DNA from: Hoeflea phototrophica DFL-43
GTDB taxonomy: Bacteria; Pseudomonadota; Alphaproteobacteria; Rhizobiales; Rhizobiaceae
DNA: 64,000 nucleotides
NCBI RefSeq assembly: GCF_000154705.2
Contig: NZ_CM002917.1
Span: 1,630,461 to 1,694,460, forward strand
Direction of reading: 5' to 3'
The notes below the pieces were generated by a model. The model was given only the letters and a program-made list of their open reading frames with translations. It was not told the origin of the DNA and made no database searches. Positions 555 to 52,043 of the stretch are shown piece by piece. Both the position numbers and the translations under genes were made by a program. Every line of letters begins with the position of its first letter. Position 1 is the first letter of the stretch.

Positions 555-1436
555 TTACAGCACAGTGCCCGACTTGAGGGTCTCAACCAGAAAGTCGCGA
601 AATGCCGTGACTTTCTTTGGTGTCTGACCGCTTGACGGATAAAGCACGACAAGATCACCAAAGAGCACATGAGGTTCCTGCAGCGACACCTCCTCAAGCA
701 AGCCTTCCTTGAGGTCGCTGCGCGCCATGAAGGTCGGCAGCAAGCCGACGCCAACGCCCTCGCGCATCAGGTCGCGCGCCAGAAAGAAGTCGTCAACGCA
801 GTACTGTACGCCATCGGCATCTAACTTGAGCAATTGAACAATACCTGCGTGCAACACCCAGCTGTGGCGTTTTTCGAGCAGTCGTTTTGGACGTCCCTGG
901 CGCGCGATATAGGCCGGGGCAGCATAGAAGGCGGTCGTGCCGCGAGCGATGCGGCGCATTTTCAAGGCCGAATCCTTGAGTGAGCCGGTTGCAACCCTGA
1001 TCGCCAGATCGTAGCCCTCTCGGACCAGGTCGGCATTGTCTGTGCTCAGGCGGATGTCGAAGCGCACATTGGGAAAGCGCTGCGAAAACGCCGATATGAT
1101 CGCCGGCAGCACCAGCACACCGAATTCGGGTGCTGCGGCAATGCGCAACAATCCTGAAGGCTCGTCCTCAAGCTCCGGCAGGTTGCTGACAGACGTCTGC
1201 AGCGCCGAGAGATGCCCGCGCGTACGCTCATAAAGCGCAGCACCGGCAGTCGACAGCGCCACATGGTGGGTCGTCCGGTGGACCAGCTCGATGCCCAGTT
1301 CAGCCTCAAGCTGAGTGATTGTGCGGCTCACCGTGCCCTTCGCCACCCCAAGTGCCTTGGCCGCCCTGGAGAAGCTTTGGTGCTCGGCGACCGCAGCGAA
1401 CGTCGTCAGCAGTCTCAGGTCAAATGGTGTCTTCAT
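555..1436 (-). CDS. LysR-family transcriptional regulator
   Basis: This 293-residue protein has the standard LysR length. Residues about 5-65 form the winged helix-turn-helix (SFSRAAKALGVAKGTVSR, then ITQLEAELG), and about 90-290 form the periplasmic-binding-like effector domain (FDIRLS, YDLAIRVATG). I start at ATG 1436; the GTG one codon earlier is possible. No good ribosome-binding site is visible. It lies downstream of the flavin oxidoreductase gene on the same strand, separated by 107 bp with an intrinsic terminator, so it probably has its own promoter. Target genes and effector cannot be read from the sequence. Confidence 0.9.
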   Translation of the reverse strand: MKTPFDLRLLTTFAAVAEHQSFSRAAKALGVAKGTVSRTITQLEAELGIELVHRTTHHVALSTAGAALYERTRGHLSALQTSVSNLPELEDEPSGLLRIAAAPEFGVLVLPAIISAFSQRFPNVRFDIRLSTDNADLVREGYDLAIRVATGSLKDSALKMRRIARGTTAFYAAPAYIARQGRPKRLLEKRHSWVLHAGIVQLLKLDADGVQYCVDDFFLARDLMREGVGVGLLPTFMARSDLKEGLLEEVSLQEPHVLFGDLVVLYPSSGQTPKKVTAFRDFLVETLKSGTVL

Positions 1437-1502
1437 CACGGAACAGCATGTTGCATTTCGATCTCAAGTGCCAGACAGAAACAGCTCTGCTGTCGCTCGG
1501 GC

Positions 1503-1536
1503 TGAAAAGGAGCCGCCGGGAACTGATCCCGGCGGC
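1503..1536 (-). terminator. Intrinsic terminator after the OYE gene
   Basis: Perfect 10-bp arms GCCGCCGGGA (1512-1521) and TCCCGGCGGC (1527-1536) enclose a 5-nt loop. On the minus strand they are followed by CTCCTTTTC. The position directly after the oxidoreductase stop codon supports termination of that transcript before the LysR gene. Confidence 0.75.
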
Positions 1537-1543
1537 GTTCTCG

Positions 1544-2665
1544 TCAGACCAGTTCGGCCAATGATGCGGGATCGAACGCCTTGAGATCATCCGCGCTGCC
1601 GGTCCTGATCTTGGTCACCCATTGCGGGTCTCCCAGGATCGCGCGGCCGACAGCGATCAGGTCGAATTCCCCGGCTTCCATGCGCCTGACCAGGCCATCG
1701 AGGCCCACCGGGGAGGATGTCTCTCCACCGAACGCGGCCATGAATTCGCCCGACAGTCCCACCGATCCGACGGAGATGGTGGCAGCGCCGGTCAGCTTCT
1801 TGGCCCAGCCGGCAAAATTGAGACCTTCCTCGCCATCGATTTCGGGAAATTCCGGTTCCCAGAAGCGGCGTTGCGAGCAATGGAAAATGTCGACGCCAGC
1901 GTCCTTGAGCGGCATCAGCCAGTCTTCCATCTCACCGGGTGTGGTGGCAAGCCGGACCTCGAAATCCTGCTGCTTCCACTGGCTGAGCCGCATCAACAGC
2001 GGATAATCGGGGCCGACTGCGGCGCGGGTTGCAGCCACCACTTCGGCAGCGAAGCGGGAACGTTCCTTCAGCGACGCGCCGCCATAGCGGTCGTCGCGCT
2101 GGTTTGTGGCGTGCCAGAAGAACTGGTCGATCAGATAGCCATGCGCACCATGGATCTCGACCACGTCAAATCCAAGCCGCTTTGCATCCGCTGCGGCCTT
2201 TGCAAAGGCGGCTATCGTGTCGGCGATGTCCTCATCGCTCATGGCAACGCCGTTCGGGTCGCCGGGGGCGTTTAGGCCTGACGGGCTCTCGACTGGCGCT
2301 TCGGGCGTCCAGCCGAACATGCCGCGGGTCGCGCCGGTGTGCCAGATCTGCGGGCCCATCTTGCCGCCTGCGGCATGCACGCCGTTGATGACATCGGCCC
2401 AGCCGGCAAGCGCGTCCGCGCCGTGGAAAAAGGGAATTCCGGCCTCGTTGCGCGAGGCGGGCCTGTCGACCACCGTTCCCTCGGAGAGGATCAGTCCGAC
2501 TTCGTTCTCGGCACGGCGGCGGTAGTAGGCAGCCACATCCGGCCCGGGAATACCCTCAGGCGAGAAAACCCGCGTCATTGGGGCCATGACGATCCGGTTC
2601 TTGAGCTTCAGCGACTTCAATTCGAAGGGGCGGAACAGGCTGTCGGTGTTGGGAAGTGTTGGCAT
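1544..2665 (-). CDS. Old-yellow-enzyme family NADH:flavin oxidoreductase
   Basis: A 373-residue FMN-dependent TIM-barrel enzyme of the old yellow enzyme family, which typically reduces activated C=C bonds with NAD(P)H. The N-terminus (NRIVMAPMTR at residues 23-32) is the FMN-binding strand, QIWHTG (106-111) follows, and HGAHGYL (172-178) holds the substrate-binding His pair. DDRYGGA (191-197) and a C-terminal AVGRAILGDPQW phosphate-binding motif are also present. I start at ATG 2665, which has AAAGGA upstream, rather than an in-frame TTG 30 bp earlier. It is divergent from an HxlR regulator across a short region with a palindrome, the usual layout for electrophile-responsive reductases. The physiological substrate is unknown. 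Confidence 0.92.
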   Translation of the reverse strand: MPTLPNTDSLFRPFELKSLKLKNRIVMAPMTRVFSPEGIPGPDVAAYYRRRAENEVGLILSEGTVVDRPASRNEAGIPFFHGADALAGWADVINGVHAAGGKMGPQIWHTGATRGMFGWTPEAPVESPSGLNAPGDPNGVAMSDEDIADTIAAFAKAAADAKRLGFDVVEIHGAHGYLIDQFFWHATNQRDDRYGGASLKERSRFAAEVVAATRAAVGPDYPLLMRLSQWKQQDFEVRLATTPGEMEDWLMPLKDAGVDIFHCSQRRFWEPEFPEIDGEEGLNFAGWAKKLTGAATISVGSVGLSGEFMAAFGGETSSPVGLDGLVRRMEAGEFDLIAVGRAILGDPQWVTKIRTGSADDLKAFDPASLAELV

Positions 2666-2698
2666 GGTCTTGGTTGTCCTTTTCAAAGAGACCAAACA

Positions 2699-2715
2699 GG
2701 TATATATCCTATACC
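2699..2715. promoter_or_regulatory. Palindromic operator candidate, OYE/hxlR
   Basis: GGTATA and TATACC form perfect arms around a 5-nt spacer in the 101-bp region between divergent genes. A second GTATAC palindrome lies at 2747-2752, close to the regulator start. HxlR dimers bind such sites; assigning these to this HxlR is inference from position. Confidence 0.55.
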
Positions 2716-2766
2716 AAGGTTCAAGAACGCACTTTGAATTGACCAGGTATACTGAAGGAAACCACC

Positions 2767-3150
2767 ATGGATAAAATCGCCTGTGAGAGCTTTTCGGCCA
2801 GCTGTCCGAGCCGTGTGTTGTTCGAGCAGATTGCCGACAAATGGTCGATGATGGTGCTGGCGGTTCTGGATGCGGGGCCGGTGCGTTTCAATGCCATCAA
2901 GCGGCATCTGGAAGGCATCACCCAAAAGGCGCTGACCGACTGCCTAAGACGCCTTGAGCGCAATGGCCTTGTCGAGCGGCGGGTGCTGCCGACATCCCCG
3001 GTGGGGGTCGAATATGAAATCACCCCGCTCGGCCGCACCCTGCAGCCACCCTTCAAGGCGCTTTATGGCTGGACCATCGAACAAATGCCTGAGGTGGAGG
3101 CGGCCCGCGAGGCGTTTGACAAGCGCACCGGTCAATCTCAGGCGATATAG
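2767..3150 (+). CDS. HxlR-family transcriptional regulator
   Basis: A 127-residue winged-helix protein. It has the HxlR pattern: Cys at residue 6 and again at 13 (CESFSASCPS), then the DNA-binding core (IADKWSMMVLAVL, RFNAIKRHLEGITQKALTDCLRRLERNGLVER split over residues about 25-78) and the wing (VEYEITPLGR). N-terminal cysteines are redox or electrophile sensors in several HxlR relatives such as YodB and HypR; a sensor role here is inference. GAAGGA precedes the ATG. It is divergent from the old-yellow-enzyme gene, which it likely represses. A bidirectional terminator follows. Confidence 0.9.
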   Translation: MDKIACESFSASCPSRVLFEQIADKWSMMVLAVLDAGPVRFNAIKRHLEGITQKALTDCLRRLERNGLVERRVLPTSPVGVEYEITPLGRTLQPPFKALYGWTIEQMPEVEAAREAFDKRTGQSQAI

Positions 3151-3200
3151 CGGCCGCAAAGGCAAAGCCGGGTTCGGCAGACCAGCGCTTTGCCAAACAA

Positions 3201-3237
3201 AAGGCGGGCGCGGTTTCCCGGACCCGCCTTTCTGTTT
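3201..3237. terminator. Bidirectional terminator between hxlR and the ABC operon
   Basis: Arms AAGGCGGG (3201-3208) and CCCGCCTT (3223-3230) are flanked by TCTGTTT on the right and by AAACAA on the left, so both strands have a U-rich tail. It separates two convergent genes. Confidence 0.8.
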
Positions 3238-3258
3238 CGGGGTGCTCTGAGAGCTGGA

Positions 3259-4047
3259 TTACAGCGAAGGCAGCGGCGGCAGCTTCTGGCCCAGCCATTT
3301 CTCGGAGAACGCGTTGAGCTGTCCGCCGAGCTTCTTGTGCAGAATGAACACGTTGACCCACTGCAGCAGGTCCACATTGCCCTTCTTCACGCCGATGAAG
3401 GCCGGGGATTCCTTGATGATGAACTTGGTTTCCATGCTCAGGTCCGGATTGTCGGCTGATACCTGGGCGGCGACCGTGTTGCCGGTGACAAGCACGTCCA
3501 CCTGGCCCGAAACATAAGCTGACAGCGTTGCTGCATTGTCGCCGAAACGGATGATCTCGGTACCCTCAGGGCTGTTCTCGGTGAGTTCGATGTCTTCGAG
3601 CGAGCCGCCGGTGACGCCGACCTTCTTGCCGGCCAGATCCGCCATCGACGAAATCGCCATGTCCGTGCTGGCGAAAGCGCCGGAGAAGAACGGCGCATAG
3701 GCGCTCGAGAACCAGATCGATTTGGCGCGTTCGGGATTGGCGCCCATCGACGAGATGATCAGGTCGACGCGGTCGGTTTCCAGAAACGGAATGCGCTGCT
3801 TGGAGGTCACCGGCACCAGCTCGATGTCAATGCCCAGGTCCTCGGCGATCAGCTTGGCGACGTCGACGTCGTAGCCTTCATACTCACCCTCTGCACCGAG
3901 TGAACCGAATGGCGGGAAGCTTTCGGGAATGCCGATCTTGATTGTTCCGGCTTCGAGAATGTCCGACAGCTCCGCATGGGCAGCGCCGGCAAAGCCAACC
4001 GTTGCGACGCAAAGCGCCAGGGTCGCGGTTCTCAGTTTATTCAGCAT
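3259..4047 (-). CDS. Periplasmic amino-acid-type solute-binding protein (family 3)
   Basis: A 262-residue exported binding protein of ABC-importer family 3 (polar amino acids, opines). Residues 1-25 are a signal peptide ending AHA before ELSDI. The family pattern follows: GTIKIGIPESFPPFG, then YEGYDVDVAKLIAEDLG, and DLIISSMGANPERAKSI with the conserved Thr/Ser-rich hinge. I start at ATG 4047 with AAAGGA upstream; the frame is open 129 bp further but carries no signal peptide there. It is the last gene after two permease genes on the same strand. Ligand specificity cannot be read. Confidence 0.92.
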   Translation of the reverse strand: MLNKLRTATLALCVATVGFAGAAHAELSDILEAGTIKIGIPESFPPFGSLGAEGEYEGYDVDVAKLIAEDLGIDIELVPVTSKQRIPFLETDRVDLIISSMGANPERAKSIWFSSAYAPFFSGAFASTDMAISSMADLAGKKVGVTGGSLEDIELTENSPEGTEIIRFGDNAATLSAYVSGQVDVLVTGNTVAAQVSADNPDLSMETKFIIKESPAFIGVKKGNVDLLQWVNVFILHKKLGGQLNAFSEKWLGQKLPPLPSL

Positions 4048-4799: not shown

Positions 4800-5473
4800 C
4801 GGGCGCGCTTCCACTGGAACATCTGGTAATAGGCCCCGTTAAGCAGCGCCTTGAACGCCAGTGCCAGCAGGATGTAGATCACCGTCAGCGTGATGAAGAC
4901 CTCGAACGAGCGGAAGGTCCGGCTGTCGATGAACAACCCGGCTGAGGTCAGGTCCGTCACCCCGATTTCCGCGATCACACCGGTGGTCAGGAACAGGAAG
5001 ATGAACTGACTGTTGAGCGAGGAATACATCGCAGCGACGGCCTGCGGGAAAATGACCTTGCGGAACAGGGTGAGCTTCTTCACCCCCAGCGCCATGGCCG
5101 CTTCCACCTGACCCGCCGGGACGGCCGCATAACCGGCGCGCAGGATCTCGGAGAAATATCCGGAAAAATTGATCGTCAGCGCCAGCAACGCATGCGCCCA
5201 GAACGGCCAGGCGTAACCGACCAGAAGCGGTAGCCCGAAGGCGAAGAAGAACAGCTGCACGATCAGCGGCGTGTTGCGGATGACCTCGACATAGGCGGTG
5301 GCGAAATGGCGCAAGCCCGGGACTTCGAAGTAACGCAAGGATGACAAAACAGCAGCAAGCAGGAACCCCAGCAGGCCGCTTCCGATCGCCAGCGCCGAAC
5401 TGAGCGCTGCGCCCTCCGCAAGCAGCCCCATATATTCCTGGCTGCGATAGATCTCAAAAAACCGAAACTCCAT
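4796..5473 (-). CDS. ABC importer permease, polar amino acid type
   Basis: A 225-residue membrane permease and the first gene of the importer operon. It has an N-terminal GAALSSALAIGSGLLGF membrane helix, the VIRNTPLIVQLFFFAFGLP signature of His/Glu/Gln/Arg permeases, and an EAA loop (EAAMALGVKKLTLFRKVIFP). I start at ATG 5473, preceded by GGGGAG; the frame stays open upstream without membrane character. It is coupled to the second permease by a four-base overlap. An AT-rich palindrome lies about 105 bp upstream. Confidence 0.9.
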   Translation of the reverse strand: MEFRFFEIYRSQEYMGLLAEGAALSSALAIGSGLLGFLLAAVLSSLRYFEVPGLRHFATAYVEVIRNTPLIVQLFFFAFGLPLLVGYAWPFWAHALLALTINFSGYFSEILRAGYAAVPAGQVEAAMALGVKKLTLFRKVIFPQAVAAMYSSLNSQFIFLFLTTGVIAEIGVTDLTSAGLFIDSRTFRSFEVFITLTVIYILLALAFKALLNGAYYQMFQWKRAR

Positions 5474-5576
5474 GAAGTGCTCCCCGATAGCGCGAAGAGT
5501 CCAGCAAGGAGCATGCCAGCTTTGTAAGAGCCGGGATGCGGATGTCCTGCCGGAATTGTTGCACAAAAAAAGGGCA

Positions 5577-5593
5577 GATCAATTAAGTTGATC
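5577..5593. promoter_or_regulatory. Palindromic operator candidate upstream of the ABC importer
   Basis: GATCAA (5577-5582) and TTGATC (5588-5593) form a perfect inverted repeat with a 5-nt spacer inside the AT-rich part of the region between the importer operon and a divergent SAM-fold gene. The second half also starts the overlapping palindrome TTGATCAA. No regulator gene is adjacent, so its owner is unknown. Confidence 0.4.
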
Positions 5594-5760
5594 AATTATT
5601 GGTCGCTAAAGTTCCTTGAAACCGGGGTTCGGCTTCTCAATCGAGACAGTGTCCTAAGGAGTTGGTTTCGAGGGTATCAGCACCCGACTTGCTCTCCGCA
5701 CGTTTTCGGGCCATCACCCTGCATTCACGCACTTGCTCCTGTCTGGAAAGGCCTGCCATC

Positions 5761-6435
5761 ATGATCCCCTGGGAACGGCTGGATGCCGTCACGCTCGAAG
5801 ATGGCGTCGAGCTCAAGCTGATGCGCCGCGGCACGGAATATTCAATCATGCTCGGCTCCAACGAGTTGATGAACAGCCGTCTGAGTGGATCGGAAGAGGC
5901 GCTGGCCAATCTGGCGGCGGAAAGGCTTGAAGGGCGGGCGTCGCCGCGGATTCTGATTGGCGGACTGGGAATGGGGTTCACCGTGCGCGCTGCCTTGGCG
6001 GCACTGGGTCAAGGCGCTTCCATCACGGTCGCGGAACTTGTTCCCGAGGTTGTCGCCTGGGCGCAAGGGCCAATGGCATCGCTCTTTGCAGGCTGTCTCG
6101 ATGATCCGCGCGTGGCCCTGCATCAGGGGGATGTCGGCGAGTTGATCCGAACCGCCAGGAGCGGGTGGGATGCGATCCTGCTTGATGTCGACAACGGCCC
6201 CGATGGGCTGACGCGTGGAGGCAATGATGCACTCTATTCCGCCAGCGGACTGGCCGCTGCACATCAGGCCCTTGCGCCGGGCGGCATCTTTTCGGTCTGG
6301 TCGTCCGCTCCTGACCCGGCGTTTACCCAGCGGCTCCGGCATGCGGGTTTCCAGGTTGAAGAAAAGCCAACCCGCGCCAGCACCAAGAAGCGCGGCGCGC
6401 GCCATATGATCTGGCTGGCATTGCGCCCCGCCTGA
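5761..6435 (+). CDS. Spermidine-synthase-like SAM-fold protein
   Basis: A 224-residue class I SAM-fold protein resembling the spermidine synthase/polyamine aminopropyltransferase superfamily. It has ILIGGLGMGFT (residues 64-74) as the nucleotide loop, an acidic residue after the second strand (TVAELVPEV), and DAILLDVDNGP (137-147) in place of the usual catalytic region. I start at ATG 5761 (GGAAAGG upstream), although the frame is open 99 bp earlier. It is shorter than true spermidine synthases and has no spermine/decarboxy-SAM partner gene nearby, so it may be a methyltransferase-like homologue. It stands alone between the importer and a chemoreceptor. Confidence 0.8.
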   Translation: MIPWERLDAVTLEDGVELKLMRRGTEYSIMLGSNELMNSRLSGSEEALANLAAERLEGRASPRILIGGLGMGFTVRAALAALGQGASITVAELVPEVVAWAQGPMASLFAGCLDDPRVALHQGDVGELIRTARSGWDAILLDVDNGPDGLTRGGNDALYSASGLAAAHQALAPGGIFSVWSSAPDPAFTQRLRHAGFQVEEKPTRASTKKRGARHMIWLALRPA

Positions 6436-6580
6436 GCGCCCGAACGTATTGAGCCCGAGCAGCAAGTGCTTCTACCACCGCTCAAGGTGAGTGGTACCCA
6501 TGGTCAAAATATGGCTTCTTAGGGGTGAAAATCCAAGGTCGGATTCAGTCGGAAAGCTGCCTCGCGTCAATTTTCGATTA

Positions 6581-6595
6581 ACTCTAAATTAGAGT
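6581..6595. promoter_or_regulatory. 15-bp palindrome upstream of the globin-coupled receptor
   Basis: ACTCTAA and TTAGAGT flank a single central A, giving a perfect 15-bp palindrome 105 bp before the preferred GTG start. It lies in the only AT-rich stretch of this spacer. Operator function is inferred. Confidence 0.4.
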
Positions 6596-6699
6596 AAATG
6601 TATACATATATGTTCTCAGGAATCCATGAAGGGCTCCGGAATTGTCGTCAAAATGTGAATGAAAATCGCGAAGTTGATGCTGTTTTGAGGGGGTTTACC

Positions 6700-8208
6700 G
6701 TGGGCCAGGACAATCACGCAGGCGTCGGCATTGAGGAGAAACTCAGCTTTTTGGCTTTTGATGAAGCGCAGCGCCAAGCACTTGTCGCTTTCAAGCCGCA
6801 GCTTGACAAATCAATGGGCCCCGCGCTCGACCGGTTTTACAAACAGGCGGCAGCTCAGCCGGAAACGGCGAAGCATTTCCGTGATGCAGCCCATATGGAG
6901 CATGCCAAACAGAAGCAGATCGATCACTGGGAGGTCATCTCCTCCGCCAAATTCGATCAGCAGTATGTCGATGCTGTCACCCGCATTGGCAAGGTTCATG
7001 CGAAGCTTGGTCTCGAACCGCAATGGTACATTGGTGCCTACGCATTGCTGCTTGAAGAGTTGACCAAGAACGCCATTCAATCCGAACTCGGCAAGTATGG
7101 GATGGGCAAGAAGGCTGGCAAGACTGCCGCGGGCATTGCCGCGGTGATCAAGGCAGCCATGCTTGACATGGACTACTCTATCTCGGTCTATCTCGACGAG
7201 CTTGCCAAAGAGCGCGAGCGGGCGGAAGCCGAACAGGCGCGCCTCAAGGCCGAACAGGACAAGGCGTTGGGTGCGTTGGACCGTGCCCTCAGCGGATTGT
7301 CGGCGGGCGATCTCGGTTCCACGATCAATGAGGATCTCGCCCCTGAATTTGATCAGCTCAAGAGCAACTACAACAGTTCCGTTGCCAAGCTGAATGAAGC
7401 CTTTTCGGATATGATCGCCTCAATCCAGCAGTCGAATTCCGATACCCGCGAGCTTTCACGCGCCACAGATGACATGGCAAAGCGGACCGAACAGCAGGCC
7501 GCGGCGCTGGAGGAAACGGCCGCAGCGATCGAAGAGATTTCCATCATCTCGAAACAGTCCGCCGAGCGCACCACCGAGGCGCGACAGGTTGTCGAGCAAA
7601 CTTCGGTCGAAGCCAAGGAGTCCGGCGAAACCGTGACCGAGGCAATTGCGGCCATGGGCAAAATCGAGGAATCCTCCAAGAAGATCACCCAGATCATCAC
7701 GGTCATCGACGAGATCTCGTTCCAGACCAATCTGCTTGCGCTCAATGCCGGTGTTGAGGCTGCGCGGGCAGGGGAAGCGGGCAGAGGGTTTGCGGTTGTC
7801 GCTCAGGAAGTGCGCGAACTGGCCCAGCGTTCGGCATCCGCAGCCAAGGAAATCAAGGAACTGATTGAGGCTTCGTTCAGCGATGTCATGCAGGGAGTGA
7901 CGTTGGTCAACAAGACCGGCAAGGCGCTAGGCAGCATTGGCGGACAGATCAGCTCCATCAGCGAGCACTTTGCCTCAATCTCCAAGTCTTCCCAGGAACA
8001 GTCGTCGGGCATTGCCGAAATCAATGCCTCGATCAATTCGATGGATCAGATTACCCAGCAAAACGCGGCGATGGTCGAGCAGACCAATGCCGCCACGCAG
8101 AACCTGCTCGGGATCAACCAGACGCTGGCGGAGCTCGCCGCACGTTTCACGGTCTCGGGCACGGGCCACGCCGCCCCGTCCGGCGGCCGGTATTCCCAGG
8201 CGGCATAG
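6700..8208 (+). CDS. Globin-coupled methyl-accepting chemotaxis protein
   Basis: A soluble chemoreceptor of about 502 residues. Residues 1-160 are a globin-coupled-sensor domain: [18 protein letters not shown] carries the proximal heme His (H100) in the family's characteristic context. A short linker with one HAMP-like segment ([14 protein letters not shown]) leads into the signalling coiled coil, whose hairpin tip contains [19 protein letters not shown]. No membrane segment is present. It should sense O2 or another gas ligand and signal through CheA/CheW. I prefer GTG 6700 because GAGGGGG sits seven bases upstream; ATG 6598 would add 34 residues unlike the family. The C-terminus ends GRYSQAA, so there is no CheR/CheB docking pentapeptide. 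Confidence 0.9.
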
Positions 8209-8857: not shown

Positions 8858-10026
8858 GAGGTCAAGACTTTGGCGGATTGATAGTGATCCGCGCGTGACG
8901 GATCCAGATTGGTGCGCGACAGATCTCCCCCGGCCCATGCGATCACCTTCGGATCCATCACCTTGAACCACAAGGGCGGGATGGCGGCGAGCAGGAAACA
9001 GCCGGGATAGCCCGACGGCAGGCTTGGCAGATGATCAAACGATCGCAGGGCCTGGTAGGGTCTCAGCGGGTTGGCATGATGGTCTGAGTGGCGCTGGAGA
9101 TGAAACAGCATCAGGTTTGTCACAATGTGATTGGTGTTCCAGGAGTGATGCGGTTCGCACGGCTCATAGCGCCCGTCGTGCCTGAGCTCGCGCTTGAGCC
9201 CGTAATGCTCGACATAGTTCGCAAAGGTGAGATGGAACCATCCGATCAAGCCGTTGAGAAGGAGAAACGGTACAATGTTCCAGCCGAAGGCCAGGATCAG
9301 CGCCGCGGCGGCCAGCAAAGTGATGGCATAGCCCTGAAGAATGTCGTTGCGCCAATGCCAGAAGCCGTGCCCCTTGCGGGCAAGCCGGACGCTTTCCATC
9401 TCCCAGCCGCGCACAGCGGTGCCCGGAATTTCCCTGAGCGCAAAGCGCCACAGACTTTCGCCGAGCCGTGCGGATGCCGGGTCGCCGGGTGTCGCCACAT
9501 GCACGTGATGCCCGCGATTGTGTTCGATTGAGAAGTGCCCGTAGCCCGAGACCGCATTCGCCAGTTTCGCGCCCCATTGATCGAGCCGGTTGGGCTTGTG
9601 TCCCAGCTCATGGCCAACCGTGATGGCCGTTCCGGAACTGATGCCGCTGCTCAGCACCAGTCCCAGATAGACCAGAAATGGGGTATCCGGCTGGCCGGCC
9701 GCAATCGCGCAGGCGAGGAAGGAAAACCAGAACACCGGCACCGAGGCAAACAGCAACACCCGGTAAAACGGATCGGAGGCCATCTGCCCGACAACGTCTT
9801 CGGGCGGATTGTTCGGGTCTGTGCCGATGAAGTGATCAGCGACAACCAGGACGCCGTAGTAAAACACCACCGGAACCACAATCCACCAGGCACTGCCGCT
9901 GGCAAGATAGGCGAGGGCGGCCAGGCCCGGCAGCGATGGCGACAGCACCGACAGCACCCACAGCCATCGCTTGCGGTCACGGTATTCGATCTTGTCGCCA
10001 TTCTTTGCAGTGGTGATGAAGATCAT
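8854..10026 (-). CDS. alkB: Alkane 1-monooxygenase (AlkB)
   Basis: A 390-residue integral-membrane di-iron hydroxylase. All AlkB histidine boxes are present: HELGHK (139-144), EHNRGHH (168-174) followed by VHVATPGDPASAR, NYVEHYG (270-276) and LQRHSDHHA (310-318). These separate it from ordinary fatty-acid desaturases. It oxidises medium-chain alkanes to 1-alkanols using rubredoxin as electron donor. I start at ATG 10026 with GGAGAGG upstream. No rubredoxin or rubredoxin reductase gene is adjacent, so electrons must come from products encoded elsewhere. It is coupled to an HD hydrolase gene. Confidence 0.94.
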   Translation of the reverse strand: MIFITTAKNGDKIEYRDRKRWLWVLSVLSPSLPGLAALAYLASGSAWWIVVPVVFYYGVLVVADHFIGTDPNNPPEDVVGQMASDPFYRVLLFASVPVFWFSFLACAIAAGQPDTPFLVYLGLVLSSGISSGTAITVGHELGHKPNRLDQWGAKLANAVSGYGHFSIEHNRGHHVHVATPGDPASARLGESLWRFALREIPGTAVRGWEMESVRLARKGHGFWHWRNDILQGYAITLLAAAALILAFGWNIVPFLLLNGLIGWFHLTFANYVEHYGLKRELRHDGRYEPCEPHHSWNTNHIVTNLMLFHLQRHSDHHANPLRPYQALRSFDHLPSLPSGYPGCFLLAAIPPLWFKVMDPKVIAWAGGDLSRTNLDPSRADHYQSAKVLTS

Positions 10027-43923: not shown

Positions 43924-44503
43924 CGCGGCACCCGATCTGTCTGATCGTCGGCATGTCGAGCTCGATCAGTCCCGCGCTGCCTGCAGTCGGCGTATCGATG
44001 AGGGTGAGCACGAAAGCGACCCCGCTGTCGGCGTCGAGCCTGATCCAGTTGCCCGTTGCGGGCTTTGCCGAAAGGGTGATGCGGAACGTGCCGTCGGGTT
44101 CGCGCAGCGTGGTCCATGAGGTCAGGCTGGCAGGAAACATTTCTGCGGCGGGAAGCGGTGTTCCGGCGTTGTCGGTGGTGCGCAGCGTCCAGAACCGCGC
44201 CGGCGGTGTCTGCCCGCTCACCTCGTAGCTGCAAAGGCCGGAAAGCGCGTCGCCATCCTGATCTTCGCTGGCGGTGAACACCAGCCCTTCCGCGCGCCCG
44301 AGCAGAATCCGGCCGTCACTGGCGCGATGGGCCTTGGCGAAGGGGTCGGCGCTTGCAGTCTGCAGCTCCGGATAACCGACCCAGGGGCCAAGGCTGATGG
44401 CGCCGAACCCCGACGTGGCGGTAAGCACGCGCGATGCTGACCACATGCCGCCGCCAAAGGCGATCACCAGCGAGAGCAGGATCAGGAGGGGGAGGCGGAA
44501 CAC
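43916..44503 (-). CDS. DUF1214-type protein
   Basis: A 195-residue protein with an N-terminal membrane helix (LILLSLVIAFGGGMWSAS) and a DUF1214 domain: PYELQTASADPFAKAHRA-like segment (YPELQTASADPFAKA), CSYEVSGQTPPARFWTLRTTD in two strands, and GNWIRLDADSG. It is the upstream partner of the DUF1254-type gene. The pair is common in Hyphomicrobiales; the biochemical role is not established. Confidence 0.85.
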   Translation of the reverse strand: MFRLPLLILLSLVIAFGGGMWSASRVLTATSGFGAISLGPWVGYPELQTASADPFAKAHRASDGRILLGRAEGLVFTASEDQDGDALSGLCSYEVSGQTPPARFWTLRTTDNAGTPLPAAEMFPASLTSWTTLREPDGTFRITLSAKPATGNWIRLDADSGVAFVLTLIDTPTAGSAGLIELDMPTIRQIGCRDA

Positions 44504-44664
44504 AGCTGCGAATGTCCTTCGTCAATCATGATGATTGGTTGCACGTACGGGTCTTAGCCAACCTTGAAAGATGTCCGGCTGAACCAACCGCGCAATCTAC
44601 GAAGCACTTGAAATCATGCATTGAGCCGACCGCCCCGGTGTTCCCCAAATCGCGATATGGCTTA

Positions 44665-46857
44665 TCACCGTTCGACGGTATTGGGAACCGGCTCGACGCC
44701 GGTATCGGCGGCGGCCAGACGTTCGGGCGGACTGAGCGGCTTGGCATTCTCGAAGGCCTGGCCAAGCGCACGCAAGATTGCCGTTGAGTTACGGTTGAGG
44801 GTGCGCGGCCGTTGCAGCCTTGGCAGCGCATTGCCGTCGGAATCTGTCTGCGCGGCGGCGACGCGAGCGCCGGCGAGTTGTTCCGGGAACGGATCTTCCA
44901 CGCCGGGAACGGCGCGCAGCTCGATATCCTGATGGGCATAGTCCATCAGCCGTTTGAAGGTCATGGCCGGCAGCGATCCGCCCGTCATCCGGTTCGATGA
45001 AGTGTAATCGTCATTGCCATACCAGACGGCAGCCGTGAAATTGCCGGTGTAGCCGCAGAACCACGCATCGCGATAGGCCTGCGTGGTGCCGGTCTTGCCG
45101 CCGGTCAGCACGCCATCGACCGCCGCGCGGCGGCCGGTGCCGACATAGGGGACCCGCGTCAGCATCTGGTTCATCGAATTCGCCGCCTGTTCCGATAGAA
45201 CCCGCTCAGCCGGTGGTTCATCGCGGGCAAAATCGTAAAGCACTTCGCCGCTGTAGGTGAGGATCTGCGAAACGCCGTGACGCCGGGCCTGAAGCCCGCC
45301 TGCGGGAAACACCGCATAGGCAGTGGCCTGATCAAGCACTGTCATCTCGGAGGTCCCGATCGGGATTGTGACATCGCGGCGGATTGGTGTTTCGACGCCG
45401 AACTTTTTCGCGATCTCCATGATCTGTCCGACCCCATCCTCCCCGAGCCGCTCCTTGGTAATGCGGACCGGAATGGTGTTGATCGATCTGGCAAAGGCCG
45501 TCTTCATGTCGACCCGTCCCGAATAGCTGTTGTTGTAGTTCTTCGGATTCCAGTTTCCCCAGAAGATCGGTGCGTCGACGATCGCGGTGTCCGGGGTCAT
45601 GCCGGCTTCCATAGCCAATGCATATGGGAAAATTTTGAACGAAGAGCCGGGTTGCCGGAGTGCGCGTGAGGCGCGGTTGAACTGGCTCTCACCATAATCC
45701 CGCCCGCCGACCATGGCCCGTACAGCACCTCCGTTCTCGATCAGAACCAGCCCCGCCTGCGAGACACGATATCTCTCGCCATACTGGCGCAGCGTGGTTT
45801 CGACGGCAGCTTCGGCAGCGTCTTGCATGCCGATGTCGATGGTGGTGCGCACGATAAAGGAATGTTCGTCAAACCCGGCGGCGATGCGCTGCACTTCCTC
45901 AAAGGCCCAGTCGAGAAAGAAATCGGGCGCGTCGGTGCCGCCCCGGTCGATGACATTGGCGGGATTGCGCCGCGCGCCGATCACCTGGCCCTCGGTCATC
46001 AGATTGCCCTGAACCAGGTTGGACAGCACTTCATTGGCCCGCGCTCGGGCGGCGGGCAGGTTGATGTGCGGCGCATAGCGGGCAGGGGCCTTGAACAGGC
46101 CCGCGAGCATTGCCGCTTCCGCTATCGAGACCTCGGTGATGTTCTTGCCGAAGTAGAACCGCGCCGCAGCTGCTGCACCAAAGGTGCCGCCGCCCATATA
46201 GGCGCGGTCGAGATAGAGCCTCAAAATTTCGGATTTTGGCAGATTGGCCTCGAGCCAGAAGGCCAGGAACGCCTCCTTGACCTTGCGCTCGATGGTCCGC
46301 TCATTGGTCAGAAACAGGTTCTTGGCCAATTGCTGGGTGATGGTGGAGCCGCCCTGAACAACCGAGTTGGCCTTGACGTTTTCGGTCATGGCACGCGCCA
46401 GACCCAGGAAATCGATGCCGAAATGCTCGAAAAAACGCCGGTCCTCGGTGGCCAGAACCGTTTTGATGAAGTGATCGGGCAGCTGGTCGATGGGCACAGA
46501 ATCCTCGTGGATGACGCCACGGTGGCCGATCTCGTTGCCGTAGCGATCCAGGAAGGTGACGGCGAAATCGTCCCGCGCGCGCCAGTTGCCCGACGTCTCC
46601 TCGAATGCCGGAAGCGCCAGCGCCAGGAGCAGCACGAACCCGGCGGTGCCGACATTCATGCCTTCGCCGGCAAATTCGAACACCGCTTTCCAGACCCCGC
46701 GGGTGCGGAACCGGCGGAAGAAGATGGTGATCTCCTCCCAGATTTCGCCCACGCGGAAGCCGGCGTTCCAGATCGACGAATCGATCCAGGAATCGATCCT
46801 GAGCAGCAGGTTGGAGCGCTTGCGCGGCCGGTTTTCCTGGTTGAACGGGTCTTGCAC
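44665..46857 (-). CDS. Class A penicillin-binding protein (transglycosylase/transpeptidase)
   Basis: A 730-residue bifunctional peptidoglycan synthase. A membrane helix at about 67-85 anchors it. The glycosyltransferase domain has [14 protein letters not shown] and [18 protein letters not shown]. The transpeptidase has the active-site S-x-x-K in [10 protein letters not shown], the S-x-N in RSINT, and KTGT in GGKTGTTQ. The start codon is GTG 46857. It polymerises lipid II and cross-links the wall in the periplasm. It is divergent from the YcgN-type gene. It is the only penicillin-binding protein in the window. Confidence 0.95.
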
Positions 46858-47035
46858 GGGCCTTGGTCCATTGCGGGTTGCCGCGGCAGCTTTCGCCGCG
46901 CGTCGGTTTGACCGTGCTGCACAATCGCACCACAGTTTTCACCCCCTGTGGTCTATGCTTTTGCCGCATTTTCAGTCAAAGGACAAGCCAATCGGGCGCT
47001 CTGCGGCGAGGCCTGTAGCAAAAGGAAGCCCCGTC

Positions 47036-47488
47036 ATGGACCCCAAGCCTTTCTGGAAAGCCAAGACGCTCGACCAGATGAATGCGGCCGAGTGGGAAAG
47101 CCTGTGCGACGGCTGTGGCCGCTGCTGTTTGAACAAGCTCGAGGACTGGGACACCGGCGAGATCGCCTGGACCAACATCGCCTGCCGCCTGCTCGACGGC
47201 CATTCCTGCCGCTGCAAGGATTATGACAACCGCCAGGCCACCGTGCCCGACTGCATCGGCCTGACCCCGGACCAGGTCGACACCATCACCTGGCTGCCGC
47301 CCACCTGCGGCTACCGGCTGGTCCGAGAGGGCCGCGATCTCTACTGGTGGCATCCGCTGGTTTCGGGCGATCCCGAAACCGTGCACCAGGCCGGCGTCTC
47401 GGTGCGCGGCCGCACGGTGAGCGAGGAGGGGATGCTGGTCGATGATTTCGAGGATTACCTGGTCGAGTGGCCGGGCGAGGAGGCTTGA
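47036..47488 (+). CDS. YcgN/UPF0260-family cysteine-cluster protein
   Basis: A 150-residue soluble protein with the YkgJ-type cluster: CDGCGRCC near residue 22, then C in NIACRLL, C-R-C in SCRCKDY and PDC. Eight Cys residues in this order suggest a zinc or Fe-S site. [15 protein letters not shown] is another conserved segment. AAAAGGAAG precedes the ATG; the frame is open far upstream but that part is antisense to the penicillin-binding-protein gene. Function unknown. It is the last ordinary gene before the AT-richer insert. Confidence 0.9.
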
Positions 47489-47861
47489 GCACCAGCCGCC
47501 CGCCGCCCGGAAGCGCCAGTCAAGACCGTCACCCAGGATCCGCTGCGCAAGGCCGCCACAATCCGCTTCTTGCGCATAATTTTGGGCGGGACGGGAACCG
47601 ATTGCGCGCTGCCGGCCTGCTCGGATTCGGCCGCCCTGTCGGGGCGCGGCGCTGACCGCCGCGCCCCCCCCAGCGCGAAACCCAGCCGCCGGAGATATTT
47701 CTCTGGCGGTTTTTTGTTGGGGTGTATTTTCTGCGTCTATAGACACAATAGGACAAGTATCTGCGTTTTATACTTCGTGCACCTGATATGATAAGAGGTG
47801 CTATGAATAAAAGTATTGGGCGATTCACGGTGCGTCCGGCTAGCTGCGGAACTTGTATAAT
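47489..47861. other. 373-bp boundary spacer with two hairpins
   Basis: A very GC-rich left half gives way to an AT-rich right half. GGGGCGCGGCG (47641-47651) and CGCCGCGCCCC (47657-47667) form an 11-bp hairpin, followed by a full intrinsic terminator at 47686-47715. The AT-rich part has TATAAT at 47856-47861, which overlaps the beginning of the next gene. No gene is seen. Confidence 0.55.
47686..47715 (+). terminator. Terminator before the HEPN-like gene
   Basis: CCGCCGGAGA (47686-47695) pairs with TCTCTGGCGG (47700-47709) with one wobble, followed by six T residues. It closes the YcgN-type transcription unit and isolates the next gene. Confidence 0.85.
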
Positions 47862-48698
47862 ATGTTTTCTTTGAATGGATCGCGTTTTCTGGACACTTTG
47901 CTGGAAATCCGCCGCATCAAAACTCAAATCGAGAGTTGGGGTGAAGATGGGCGTGAGGCAGAGGTGACAAGCGCACGGGCTACGTTGAGCGAACAATTCA
48001 GGGAGCTCGCCATGGCCGCCGAAGCGGTGCAGGCAAGATTGGCGGGCGTAGCTGCGAGGCGAATGGCTGAGATGCTCGATGATTCAAGTCAAGTCGTGCG
48101 GATGGAGCAAGTAAGATCTTCGATTGATGATGTGGAATCTCGATTGCGTGACGAACTCAAGCAGGTGGCAATATTTGTCATGCATGCGCACGAGACTATG
48201 CTGTTGGGAAACGCTAATGAGCTCGCGAGCGGTTGGGATATAAATGCATTTTACCCGGATGCAGCTAGGGAGCTTGAAGAATCGGCTAAATGCATAGCCT
48301 TTGATAGGCCGACTGCTGGGGTTTTTCATGCTATGCGCATGTTGGAGGTGGGGTTAAAAGCTCTGGCCGCGCATCTTGAAATAGATGACCCTACTGATCC
48401 TGCCAAGCGCAATTGGGGGGCGATGCTTCGCGACATCAAGACCAAAATCGATGAAAAATTCGACAAGGGCAGCGATAGGCGAGAAAAGTACGAGCGCCTT
48501 TATGCGTCCATAGATGCAGTCAGAAACCCTTGGCGCAACGGTTCAATGCACGTGACCTCTTTCTATTCCGGCCAGGAGGCACTGCATATTTTGCGTTGCT
48601 CCCTCTATTTTCTGCAAATGCTGGCGAGCGTCACTAATCCTAGCGAAGTCGAAGAGCCAGAGGCGCAAGAGAAGGACGGTTTACCGATTGCGGGATAG
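47862..48698 (+). CDS. HEPN-like protein, accessory gene
   Basis: A 278-residue helical protein with visibly lower GC and different codon use (AAT, GAT, ATA) from its neighbours. I start at ATG 47862; the in-frame TTG three codons earlier is the only alternative. The N-terminal 130 residues predict coiled coil (MAAEAVQARLAGVAARRMAEM, VRSSIDDVESRLRDELKQV). The C-terminal part has the helical layout of a HEPN domain: RPTAGVFHAMRMLEVGLKALA, then AVRNPWRNGSMHVTSFY, where R225-N-G-S-M-H230 gives the R-x4-H motif of HEPN ribonucleases. Such domains occur in toxins and phage-defence proteins, but some are inactive. No antitoxin partner is adjacent. Function inferred only. Confidence 0.65.
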   Translation: MFSLNGSRFLDTLLEIRRIKTQIESWGEDGREAEVTSARATLSEQFRELAMAAEAVQARLAGVAARRMAEMLDDSSQVVRMEQVRSSIDDVESRLRDELKQVAIFVMHAHETMLLGNANELASGWDINAFYPDAARELEESAKCIAFDRPTAGVFHAMRMLEVGLKALAAHLEIDDPTDPAKRNWGAMLRDIKTKIDEKFDKGSDRREKYERLYASIDAVRNPWRNGSMHVTSFYSGQEALHILRCSLYFLQMLASVTNPSEVEEPEAQEKDGLPIAG

Positions 48699-48864
48699 AA
48701 TTTTGATCGCTTTTGTGAAGGCTTAGCCCGTTTTATCAGCCTCAGTCTTCCAAACTCTTCCGTTGGGATTGGGGTGGCTCGATATCACTGTGTTCTTATA
48801 AAATAGCTTGGTAAGATGACGACTAAGCGAAGTCCCAAGACTATAGAAAATAGGAAAATAATCC

Positions 48865-48893
48865 TTGACGGCGTCACGGGGCTCTGGTAGGTT
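48865..48893 (+). promoter_or_regulatory. Candidate promoter of the GTA cluster
   Basis: TTGACG (48865-48870) and TAGGTT (48888-48893) are spaced by 17 bp, in the CTTGACG context favoured by rhizobial housekeeping sigma factors. It points toward the first GTA gene, 160 bp downstream. The transcript would include the direct repeats and the hairpin. Confidence 0.55.
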
Positions 48894-48961
48894 CATGTCA
48901 TCGTCACACAAATGCGCCGGGAGCGGCGGGTTGGGTGAGGTGCTGCTGCGGCAGTGAAGTT

Positions 48962-48991
48962 GACAGTGCGAGACAGTGCGAGACTGTGTGA
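48962..48991 (+). repeat. Three direct 10-bp repeats before the GTA cluster
   Basis: GACAGTGCGA is present twice in tandem and followed by the diverged GACTGTGTGA. One helical turn per unit would put bound proteins on the same face of the DNA. A regulator site is inferred; too few units and no spacers for a CRISPR. Confidence 0.65.
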
Positions 48992-49022
48992 GCGTCTGAG
49001 GCTGCGGCCCGGGCGCTTTTTT
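48991..49022 (+). terminator. Attenuator-like hairpin in the GTA leader
   Basis: AGCGTCTG (48991-48998) can pair with CGGGCGCT (49010-49017) with two G-U pairs, followed by a T-run to 49022. It lies between the candidate promoter and the first GTA gene, so if functional it would stop most transcripts before the cluster. The stem is imperfect. Confidence 0.4.
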
Positions 49023-49053
49023 GTTGGCCGGATTCCAAGCGGAAAAGATCGAG

Positions 49054-49647
49054 ATGACACACCACCTGCCTGCTGCGGGCCTTTCTGCCGTGCCCGGAGA
49101 GCTGTTGCCGGCCGATGCGATTGATCAGGCGCTGGATGCGCTCTGGGCCCTGGCGGCCGATGATGCGACGGCTGAGCCCTTTGCCTTTCTGGTCAATGAT
49201 CCCGGGCTCCGTGCGATGATCGAAATCAAGCAGGCCAGGCTACCCGATGCCGGGGATCAAGAGAGTGTTCAAGTCGGGGAACAAGAGGGTGATCAAGAGC
49301 CGGTGAGCGTGAACGGGAGCGAGCCGGCGCCTATCGCTGACAGCACCAGGGCGATGCTTGCGCAGATGCGTGCAGTGCTGGACCGTGAGGCGGCTCGGCT
49401 GGGTGAGGAGGGCGTGGAGGGCAAGGCGGCGGTCGATCAGGTGGCGCTGATTGCCCGGACGCTTGAAAAGATCGACCAGATGGAGCGGCTGATCGCCGAG
49501 GATAAGGCCCGCGCGCAGAGCCAGGCATTGAGTGGCGAGGAGCGTGAGCAGATGCGCCAGACGGTGCGCCAGCTGATCCTCGCCGCCGCCGAGCGGATGG
49601 TGGCGCAGCGGCAGGCGGAGGATGGCGCGAGCGGGCAGGCCGGATAG
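49054..49647 (+). CDS. GTA small terminase candidate (gp1 position)
   Basis: A 197-residue protein directly before terL. Its segment VALIARTLEKIDQMERLIAEDKARAQ resembles the helical region of the R. capsulatus GTA g1 product, which works as the small terminase. An acidic repeat of ESVQVGEQEGDQE near residue 72 and a helical C-terminus follow. I start at ATG 49054. Its stop abuts the terL start with no gap. The assignment rests on position and one segment; an unrelated protein is possible. Confidence 0.6.
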   Translation: MTHHLPAAGLSAVPGELLPADAIDQALDALWALAADDATAEPFAFLVNDPGLRAMIEIKQARLPDAGDQESVQVGEQEGDQEPVSVNGSEPAPIADSTRAMLAQMRAVLDREAARLGEEGVEGKAAVDQVALIARTLEKIDQMERLIAEDKARAQSQALSGEEREQMRQTVRQLILAAAERMVAQRQAEDGASGQAG

Positions 49648-51126
49648 ATGGCCGGAGAGACCCGCGGCATGATTCTCCAGTCGATGACGGTGGCGCTGAA
49701 TTGCGGCGTGTGGATGCGCCCCAGACGGTATCCCGCGCGGCGGATCCAGATGCGGATGGCCGAAGGGGCTGCGTGCACATCCCGGTCCGAACCCAGCGGC
49801 GATCTTGAAGCCGGTCTTGAGGTTGGGGACAGCGGCGCTGCGGCGGTTGCGGATCTGCTCGCAGCCTGGATCGCTGAGTTTGACGACCAGGCGCTGATCG
49901 CCAATGCCAATGACTGGCAGTTGATCGCCCGGCCCGAGCAATTGCCGCCTGACGGCGACTGGCGATCCTGGCTGCTGATGGGCGGGCGCGGTTCGGGCAA
50001 GACGCGCGCAGGCGCTGAATGGGTGCATGGGCTGGCGTCCGGCGCGGTGCCGGGCCTGGGCCGTCAGGGGCGGATTGCGCTGGTGGCGGAGACCTTTGGC
50101 GATGCGCGCGAGGTGATGATCGACGGGGTGTCGGGGATCATGGGCGTGGCTCGGGATCAGCGGCCCGCCTTCGAGGCGACGCGACGCAGGCTGGTCTGGC
50201 CCTCCGGCGCGGTGGCGCAGATGTTTTCATCCGAAGACCCCGAAAGCCTGCGTGGCCCGCAATTTGATCTCGCCTGGTGCGATGAACTGGGCAAATGGCG
50301 CCATGCCCGCGAGACCTGGGACATGCTGCAATTTGCGCTCAGGCTTGGGCAGCACCCGCGCCAGCTGATCACCACGACGCCAAGGGCGACGCCCCTGATG
50401 CTGGCGCTGGTGAAAGACATTGGCACGCGGGTCACACGGATAAGGACCGAGGACAATGCAGGCAATCTGGCGGCGGGGTTTCTCGACACGGTGCGGGCGC
50501 GTTATGGCGGCACGCGGCTGGGGCGTCAGGAACTTGACGGCGAGCTGATCGCCGACCGCGAGGACGGGCTGTGGCGGCGCGAGCAACTGGAAGCCCTCGT
50601 GGTGCGCAAGCCCGGACCGCTGGGGCGCATCGTGGTGGCGGTGGATCCGCCCGCATCCGGCGAGGCAAAACATTCCTGCTGCGGCATTGTTGCCGCCGGA
50701 CTGGATGCGGAAGGCCGCGCGGTGGTGCTGGCCGATGGCTCGCAAGAGGGCGCAAGCCCGTCGGGCTGGGCGGGTGCGGTGAGCAGGCTCTACCGCCGCT
50801 TTGACGCCGATTGCGTGGTCGCCGAGATCAATCAGGGCGGCGACATGGTGACAAGTGTTCTGCGCACCGTCGATTCGACGCTGCCGGTGCGGCAAGTGCG
50901 GGCGACGCGCGGCAAATGGCTGCGCGCCGAACCGGTTGCCGCTCTCTATGAGCAGGGCCGGGTGGTCCATGCCGGGCATTTTGCGGCGCTGGAAGACCAG
51001 ATGTGCGACTTCGGCCCTGACGGGCTGTCCTCCGGCCGCTCGCCGGACCGGCTCGACGCGCTGGTCTGGGCGCTGACCGAATTGCTGCTCGAACGCAGAG
51101 GCGCGCCGCAGATACGGCATCTTTGA
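49648..51126 (+). CDS. terL: GTA terminase large subunit (gp2)
   Basis: A 492-residue DNA-packaging motor. Walker A is GGRGSGKT (residues 112-119) and Walker B FDLAWCDE (206-213). The C-terminal nuclease has the acidic clusters VAVDPPASGE, VAEINQGGD and SPDRLDAL. In RcGTA-type agents this enzyme packages headfuls of host DNA. The first 60 residues are low-similarity and may be an over-extension; the homologous part starts near residue 63 (AAAVADLLAAW). It is fused in frame position to the stop of the upstream gene, with zero spacing. Confidence 0.92.
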   Translation: MAGETRGMILQSMTVALNCGVWMRPRRYPARRIQMRMAEGAACTSRSEPSGDLEAGLEVGDSGAAAVADLLAAWIAEFDDQALIANANDWQLIARPEQLPPDGDWRSWLLMGGRGSGKTRAGAEWVHGLASGAVPGLGRQGRIALVAETFGDAREVMIDGVSGIMGVARDQRPAFEATRRRLVWPSGAVAQMFSSEDPESLRGPQFDLAWCDELGKWRHARETWDMLQFALRLGQHPRQLITTTPRATPLMLALVKDIGTRVTRIRTEDNAGNLAAGFLDTVRARYGGTRLGRQELDGELIADREDGLWRREQLEALVVRKPGPLGRIVVAVDPPASGEAKHSCCGIVAAGLDAEGRAVVLADGSQEGASPSGWAGAVSRLYRRFDADCVVAEINQGGDMVTSVLRTVDSTLPVRQVRATRGKWLRAEPVAALYEQGRVVHAGHFAALEDQMCDFGPDGLSSGRSPDRLDALVWALTELLLERRGAPQIRHL

Positions 51127-51177
51127 TGTTGGCGCAGAATCGGACAGGCTCGGCTCTGAACCGGTAGGGCGAAAGGA

Positions 51178-51828
51178 ATGGATGTGGCCAGCGCGACCGA
51201 GACAGAAATGGAGATGGTGCTGGCGGGCTATGCCGGGCTTGGTGCGGAATGGATCGCCCGCTCCGACGGTCTGAGTTGCGATGAAATCTATGCGCCTGTG
51301 GCGGATCTGCTGCCGCTTGCGCCCTCGCGCGTTCTCGATCTGGGAGCGGCCACCGGGCGCGATGCGGCCTGGCTGGTCAGCCTGGGGCACTGCGTTACCG
51401 CGGTGGAGCCGGTAAGGTCCTTGAGAGAGGCCGGGTTGCGGCTTCACCCGCAGGGCGAAATTGACTGGGTCGATGACCGTCTGCCGGGGCTGGAGCGGAT
51501 CGACGTGGCTGAGAGCTATGGCTGTGTGCTGGCCAATGGCGTGCTGCATCATCTCGAGCCGGCTGCGCAGCAAAGCGCGATCCGCCGTCTGGCCCCAATG
51601 CTTGACCCTGGTGGCCTGATGATTGCCTCGCTGCGGCACGGTGCCGGGCCTGAAGGCCGGAAGGCCTGGCCGATCGATGTTGAGGCGCTGGTCGGGATTG
51701 CACGGACCTGCGGCTTGGATCTGATACGCCGCGTCGACAAGGGCTCGATCCAGCCGGAGAACCAGACTGCCGGTATCACCTGGACCTGGCTTGCGCTCAG
51801 GCGAAGCGAGGGCACCGCCGGCGGCTGA
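51178..51828 (+). CDS. SAM-dependent methyltransferase within the GTA cluster
   Basis: A 216-residue class I methyltransferase. Motif I is RVLDLGAATGRD (51-62); Glu77 after the second strand binds ribose; CVLANGVLHHL is the fourth strand. The region after HHL resembles small-molecule rather than DNA methyltransferases (no NPPY or PC motif). It lies between terL and the portal gene, where RcGTA has no gene. GAAAGGA abuts the ATG, too close to be an ideal Shine-Dalgarno. The downstream 284-bp space holds a palindromic repeat, so the gene plus repeat form an insertion. Role unknown. Confidence 0.85.
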   Translation: MDVASATETEMEMVLAGYAGLGAEWIARSDGLSCDEIYAPVADLLPLAPSRVLDLGAATGRDAAWLVSLGHCVTAVEPVRSLREAGLRLHPQGEIDWVDDRLPGLERIDVAESYGCVLANGVLHHLEPAAQQSAIRRLAPMLDPGGLMIASLRHGAGPEGRKAWPIDVEALVGIARTCGLDLIRRVDKGSIQPENQTAGITWTWLALRRSEGTAGG

Positions 51829-51900
51829 GCGAATTGCTGGTCGGCGCAGGAGCGAACCGCAAGTGCGGCTTTTGTGAAGTGGTTTGGGGTTCAATGAGTG

Positions 51901-52043
51901 CCGTCATGCCGGACTTGATCCGGTATCCAGCAGGCGAGCGTCCGCGAGCCAGGAGACCTTTTTGCAGGACGCGAGATTGAAAAGAGTCTCTCACCGCGCC
52001 GACGCGCGGTCGCTGGATCCCGGATCGGGGTCCGACATGACGG
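51901..52043. repeat. Palindromic intergenic repeat element inside the GTA cluster
   Basis: Left arm CCGTCATGCCGGACTTGATC with continuation to 51931 pairs with the right arm 52012-52043 (ending CCGACATGACGG) over 31-32 positions with a few mismatches. An inner pair, GAGAC (51953-51957) and GTCTC (51986-51990), extends the fold. Arms of the pattern GTCATGCCGGACTTGATCCGG are widespread in alphaproteobacterial intergenic regions, from memory. The 143-bp size fits a small palindromic mobile element. Confidence 0.8.

Follow-up and report, generated by a model that had tools for sequence, protein, structure and literature searches.

A solitary HEPN-type gene beside the GTA cluster of Hoeflea phototrophica, and the IS1595-type transposons that carry its relatives

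Metal-independent RNase activity is a trait of the HEPN superfamily, and some members of the IS1595 transposon family carry passenger genes. HepS of the Gifsy-1 prophage (structure 9oij) is described as a solitary anti-phage HEPN nuclease. According to the portions of three sources that we consulted, Ymh occurs as solos and AbiJ joins a helical N-terminal domain to a HEPN domain (PMC3710099); IS1595-family elements make an 8-bp duplication and encode a zinc-ribbon plus DDE transposase as their single transposase gene (PMC8101967); and LypABC, a CARD-NLR-like system, was shown experimentally to control GTA release in Caulobacter (PMC13236601). The literature that we searched held no link between HEPN toxin/defence genes, IS1595-type transposons and GTAs.

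We analysed 64,000 nucleotides of H. phototrophica DFL-43 (NZ_CM002917.1, positions 1,630,461 to 1,694,460, forward strand; hereafter the window), which hold a gene that can be compared with each of these systems. Its product resembles the Ymh (PF09509)/AbiJ type in having a HEPN-like domain with R-N-x3-H, and 10 of the 18 members of its family match the later part of the Ymh profile, all below the Pfam cut-off; in contrast, the family's N-terminal bundle matches no named family, and the relatives of the gene are carried by IS1595-type transposons. Unlike RnlA/LsoA (RNase LS), the protein shows no RnlA-type N-terminal domains and gave no sequence match, and no RnlB-like partner was seen beside the gene among ORFs of at least 60-80 aa. 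HepS is prophage-borne, whereas here the carrier is probably a transposon, and the structural match to it (A3) lies within the range of common helical arrangements. The elements that carry the relatives share with the IS1595 family a DDE_Tnp_IS1595 plus zinc-ribbon transposase, inverted repeats and 8-bp duplications, but bear extra, often HEPN-type cargo and prefer GG-N8-CC targets, including the GTA promoter box; the copy in the window, moreover, is without a transposase. With LypABC the locus has in common that immune-type genes meet GTA biology; in the part of that account available to us, however, the proteins are unrelated and lie away from the GTA locus, whereas our gene is linked to the GTA by location alone.

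The gene and its putative HEPN-type product

The features of the locus are as follows (window positions):

47036..47488, + strand: upstream neighbour, a CxxCxxCC-domain (ycgN-like) gene (PF03692), left anchor of the site
47684..47711, + strand: terminator-like stem after that gene (terminator scan)
47748..47761, + strand: ATAGG-ACAAGTAT-C, degenerate and probably a left-hand copy of the GTA box, 11/14 identical to ATAGG-AAAATAAT-C
47761..47783, + strand: CTGCGTTTTATACTTCGTGCACC, probable degenerate left inverted repeat of a transposon (position weight matrix, PWM)
47862..48698, + strand: HEPN-type gene, 278 aa; open frame, 17 homologues, atypical composition
47877..48155, + strand: N-terminal helical bundle, codons 6-98 (AlphaFold2 model), possibly a sensor or regulatory part
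48243..48647, + strand: HEPN-like domain, codons 128-262 (predicted structure)
48534..48551, + strand: R225-N-G-S-M-H230 motif; R, N and H invariant in 18/18
48847..48926, + strand: conserved block upstream of GTA g1, putative promoter region (blastn, alignment of 8)
48853..48864, + strand: GGAAAATAATCC, conserved target box immediately preceding the TTGAC of the putative GTA promoter region; an insertion target elsewhere
49021..51126, + strand: GTA g1-like ORF and terminase, right anchor of the site (Pfam terminase domains)

The reading frame is real: it is open throughout from an ATG at 47862 to a stop codon ending at 48698, and this start is supported because an M-[L/F]-x-[L/V]-N-like beginning is common to most homologues. 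A 23-codon ORF in another frame (47803-47874) overlaps the start codon and is either a leader peptide or a chance occurrence. The gene is present once in its genome and stands furthest apart among the 18 window ORFs in all three measures used: GC of 0.517 vs. 0.616-0.680 in the 17 others, GC3 of 0.545 vs. 0.659-0.868, and a codon-use score of -1.42, the lowest, vs. -0.80 to -1.22. A first-pass annotation of the window had described an isolated, AT-richer gene boxed in by a terminator and the GTA control region; both points stand, with a terminator-like stem upstream (such sites number three in the whole stretch, against 1.9 expected from shuffles) and a genus-conserved block downstream, and the gene is indeed solitary, foreign-looking and beside the GTA. 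That block was matched, whole or for the most part, by blastn in 14 of 14 genus loci and contains TTGAC-17-TAGGTT, which looks promoter-like by eye and was not reported by the consensus scan. Among the GTA neighbours Pfam recognized terminase, portal, capsid, head-tail connector, baseplate-hub-type and DUF2460 proteins; the g1-like ORF gave no match in that scan.

The motif R225-N226-G-S-M-H230 agrees with the R-x4-6-H of the superfamily, in which a polar residue follows the arginine (PMC3710099, in the parts consulted). Its R, N and H are invariant across all 18 aligned sequences, R-N-x3-H is kept in 21 of 21 sister sequences, and R[NDH]x3H is found in 15 of 16 further loci, being broken in L118. 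Upstream lie a conserved E-x3-K and R-x2-E, with E139-x3-K143 and E162 invariant, as is usual for HEPN proteins, which have an upstream acidic residue typically within E-x3-[KR]. In the AlphaFold2 model, HEPN chains are among the best structural matches of residues 128-262, which points to the HEPN helical fold; pLDDT in the motif loop is modest (60-77), and bacteriorhodopsin scores 8.2 on the same C-terminal half, a Z that helical bundles reach through common arrangement. Foldseek gave no match at E 0.001 or better, the PDB sequence search found no HEPN chain, and the protein itself reached no curated family threshold and had no Ymh profile match. Sub-threshold Pfam matches in several family members point to Ymh/HEPN; the best scores 20.3 bits against the Ymh cut-off of 25, so that the family is Ymh-like only. 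From these sequence and model data together, we assign the protein to a small unnamed HEPN-type family, in agreement with the HEPN call of the first-pass annotation; the N-terminal coiled coil that it had also proposed gives way to four predicted helices (residues 6-98) in place of a plain coiled coil.

Relatives as cargo of IS1595-type transposons

Matches to the protein occur in 8 of 297 family genomes at E 0.001 and in 9 of 385 class genomes at E 1e-10, its own included in both counts. In the loci read, the relatives' genes are AT-richer than, or about equal to, their surroundings. They sit at many unrelated places, often among core-type genes. By eye, among ORFs of at least 60-80 aa, no recurrent partner gene was seen beside the relatives and no antitoxin or partner gene beside the gene itself. 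In L004 an ORF at 1395-1694, presumably CcdB-like, overlaps the start of the HEPN relative's frame by 4 bases; L053 (G031) groups, at 5072-7502, a member of the HEPN family of the window gene with a small R-x4-H gene and a fragment of a transposase. Distant relatives (24-30% identity) were met on one viral contig (L015 10001-10516) and in five plasmid records (H1-H5).

IS1595-type transposons carry relatives of the gene, and further small R-x4-H proteins, as cargo. The elements consist of a transposase and cargo bracketed by ~24-bp inverted repeats (forms GGCGATATTATACTTGACGTACCCA and CCTAATTATATACTTGACGTACCA) and 8-bp duplications, and L003, whose protein is 46% identical to that of the window, lies within an element having both repeats and the duplication. 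Among 28 distinct HEPN-type loci scanned, an IS1595-type transposase adjoins the gene in 11 (7 convergent, 3 in the same direction, 1 divergent) and transposase fragments lie near 3 more; the stretches scanned of the other 14, one of them the window, showed no transposase or transposase fragment, and scans of several HEPN loci for terminal inverted repeats gave nothing above shuffle level. Both DDE_Tnp_IS1595 and Zn_ribbon_IS1595 domains were found in three of three transposases scanned (PF12762, E 9e-33 to 5.5e-35), which, with the repeats and duplications, places the elements in the IS1595 family. The 18 HEPN-bearing genomes yielded no more than 26 transposase rows, and nevertheless 9 of these genomes have one ≤5 kb from the HEPN gene, in a control whose profile was partly built from the copies counted.

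A perfect 8-bp duplication was found in 33 of 42 loci and none in the other 9; as the search tries many offsets, a few (L130, L131) may be spurious. Twenty-one of the 33 are flanked as GG-N8-CC, and 6 more have the flank on one side only. The sample was in part selected: its first 11 loci were picked for holding a HEPN relative, L129-L132 come from genomes or contigs with a previously known HEPN-type gene, and in one further set nearness to the GTA was the reason for picking 8 of its 20 loci. HEPN-type cargo is present in 14 of the 31 loci not preselected for HEPN, 8 by HMM and 6 by motif only, that is by R-N-x3-H in a cargo-sized ORF (L129, L163, L164, L168, L171 and L181); a looser count of 27/42 includes three motif matches (L131, L166, L169) that we regard as chance. 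Other elements carry different, non-HEPN proteins, among them what we take to be DUF3800-like proteins in L123, L125, L127, L128 and L170 and, near a GTA-adjacent transposase, a presumably SocA/DUF4065-type protein (L166 1792-2283). Not every element carries a HEPN gene, and carriage by a transposon does not by itself mark a gene as one of defence. At GG-ATATTTTT-CC in L006 (~9838-9900), a transposase element directly adjoins a HEPN gene that has a repeat end of its own, an arrangement that suggests re-use of one target by two elements.

The GTA promoter box as a landing site

In 14 of 15 same-genus loci, the window included, GG-W8-CC stands directly before TTGA; in the fifteenth, L048, an element fills the site and the box reads GTGAAAATAATCC. 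The same box is found in 24 of 56 other linked family loci, and many of the rest differ by one base. IS1595-type elements with HEPN and other cargo repeatedly hit this box: the box is duplicated around elements at the GTA place within the genus (G306, G299, G304) and in other genera (G215, G218, G030, G067, G200, G204, G281, G032), and non-HEPN cargo lands there too. In L129 (G304), two IS1595-type elements apparently lie in tandem in the GTA box (394-3595), each with R-x4-H cargo. At E 1e-90 there are 42 transposase copies in 38 of 297 family genomes, and at least 12 of the 42 lie within ~3 kb of the GTA terminase (G215, G281, G218, G032, G067, G060, G200, G214, G042, G030, G221, G204), a lower bound, as 12 of the 42 rows had no locus; by our own arithmetic, uniform insertion into genomes of ~4.7 Mb would place ~0.03-0.05 copies there. 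The GTA-adjacent copies in L166, L168 and L169 are without a resolved duplication.

The site itself varies in content. None of 14 same-genus loci has the gene there (its protein gave a best tblastn E of 0.38), and the gap between the same two conserved blocks, 1188 bp in the window, is as short as 43 bp in the genus. Over 71 linked loci (window 47489-48846; L036-L049, L055, L057-L111; from 72 site loci we omitted L112, whose left anchor falls outside its stretch), the interval from the CxxCxxCC gene to g1/terminase ranges from 176 bp to 17.5 kb. Toxin-type genes, transposases and metabolic genes are mixed within it, and different R-x4-H genes recur there.

Origin and likely function of the gene

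At the window copy, sequence comparison gives support on the left alone, where it points to a probable transposon end next to a duplicated box. The 11/14 box match is the best position between 47491 and 48846, a level reached by 18 of 402,600 model-sequence positions; it runs straight into the degenerate repeat, and its distance to the ...ACC end is as in intact elements. The repeat has a PWM score of 11.0 (47764-47783), above the 95th percentile of shuffles (9.1) and below the maximum of 200 shuffles (16.1). On the right the box is intact, and a right repeat is indistinguishable from the genus's own ATAGG sequence. No transposase was found in window positions 44001-52000 or, at E ≤1e-20, in the genome. 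We regard a transposon origin of the gene as likely. That the HEPN reading is right but the gene came by ordinary horizontal transfer and recombination, the left-end match being due to chance, appears unlikely to us: the variable interval with its mixed cargo, the failure to find a transposase in that region or the genome and a repeat score within shuffle range all fit such a history, whereas the box copy and repeat stand side by side at intact-element spacing, the relatives travel as transposon cargo and elements have hit this site repeatedly.

A gene kept at this place as a GTA accessory, whose product or transcription would modulate GTA production or protect cells meanwhile, is distinctly improbable in our view. 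The gene is co-directional with the GTA, the scan reported no + strand terminator-like site between it and g1, different R-x4-H genes recur at the site, and in Caulobacter the release of GTAs is governed by a system of immune type (PMC13236601, as far as consulted); against this, relatives lie at many other places, all the same-genus site loci lack the gene, non-HEPN cargo lands at the box too, and transposon target choice is enough. A role in GTA control is possible and is not needed for the location, because insertions of IS1595-type elements recur in the GG-N8-CC box of the GTA promoter. Of the defence or GTA-regulating accessory gene envisaged by the first-pass annotation, the HEPN-type, solitary, foreign-looking and GTA-side parts hold, while a role in defence is presumed and one in GTA regulation stays conjectural. 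The protein could instead serve as the toxin in a toxin-antitoxin or addiction unit stabilizing the transposon or the locus, its antitoxin being small, distant or self-contained; TA-type genes lie in the same interval of relatives (HigB-like in L040, PIN in L101 and L109), and the ORF preceding L004's copy is presumably CcdB-like. HEPN toxins are common in such systems (PMC3710099, in part), but by eye no partner was seen among ORFs of at least 60-80 aa at the gene or repeatedly at its relatives, and we think this quite unlikely. Highly unlikely, finally, is a HEPN fold without an RNase role, such as an RNA-binding regulator of transposition or gene expression: cargo beside a transposase could serve the element and some HEPN domains are non-catalytic (same source, same parts), but non-catalytic families lose the catalytic-type R-N-x3-H, which is invariant here in 18/18 and 21/21.

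We therefore favor, as fairly probable, a solitary HEPN RNase-type protein that arrived as IS1595-type cargo at the GTA box, was stranded there and acts as an abortive-infection (Abi)/toxin-type RNase. A transposon preferring GG-(8 bp, A/T-rich)-CC would have landed in the box upstream of the GTA TTGAC, and the cargo would be stranded since its transposase is gone. In the protein, the N-terminal helical bundle would precede a HEPN domain that probably dimerizes and whose active site would consist of R225, N226 and H230; the bundle may hold or trigger this domain, giving a self-contained RNase kept inactive until infection or another cue. By analogy with described HEPN families (PMC3710099, in part) and from motif invariance, an Abi/toxin RNase with N-terminal control is the likeliest function; it is in this sense that we infer RNase activity, a dimer, a trigger, phage defence and any effect on the GTA.

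A wider reading, which we offer tentatively and with more doubt than confidence, is that the conserved GG-W8-CC-TTGAC box is a lineage-wide, attTn7-like docking site for a clan of IS1595-type elements that often carry solitary HEPN genes and others of toxin or defence type. As insertions would spare the promoter from TTGAC onwards, GTA loci would collect immunity-type cargo. GTA particles hold ~4 kb of DNA in Rhodobacter, and such particles could spread the 2-3.7 kb elements; the HEPN products, for their part, may keep phage infection or GTA induction in check.

In conclusion, the larger finding, beyond the earlier reading of the gene, is that IS1595-type elements carry genes of this kind as cargo and land time and again in the GTA promoter box. 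It gives functional leads for several unnamed protein families and raises the question of whether such insertions change GTA control. If true, a GTA promoter that serves as a recurrent landing site for elements bearing toxin-type cargo would explain foreign immunity-like genes beside conserved GTA clusters and would provide a testable route for the movement of single-gene defences.
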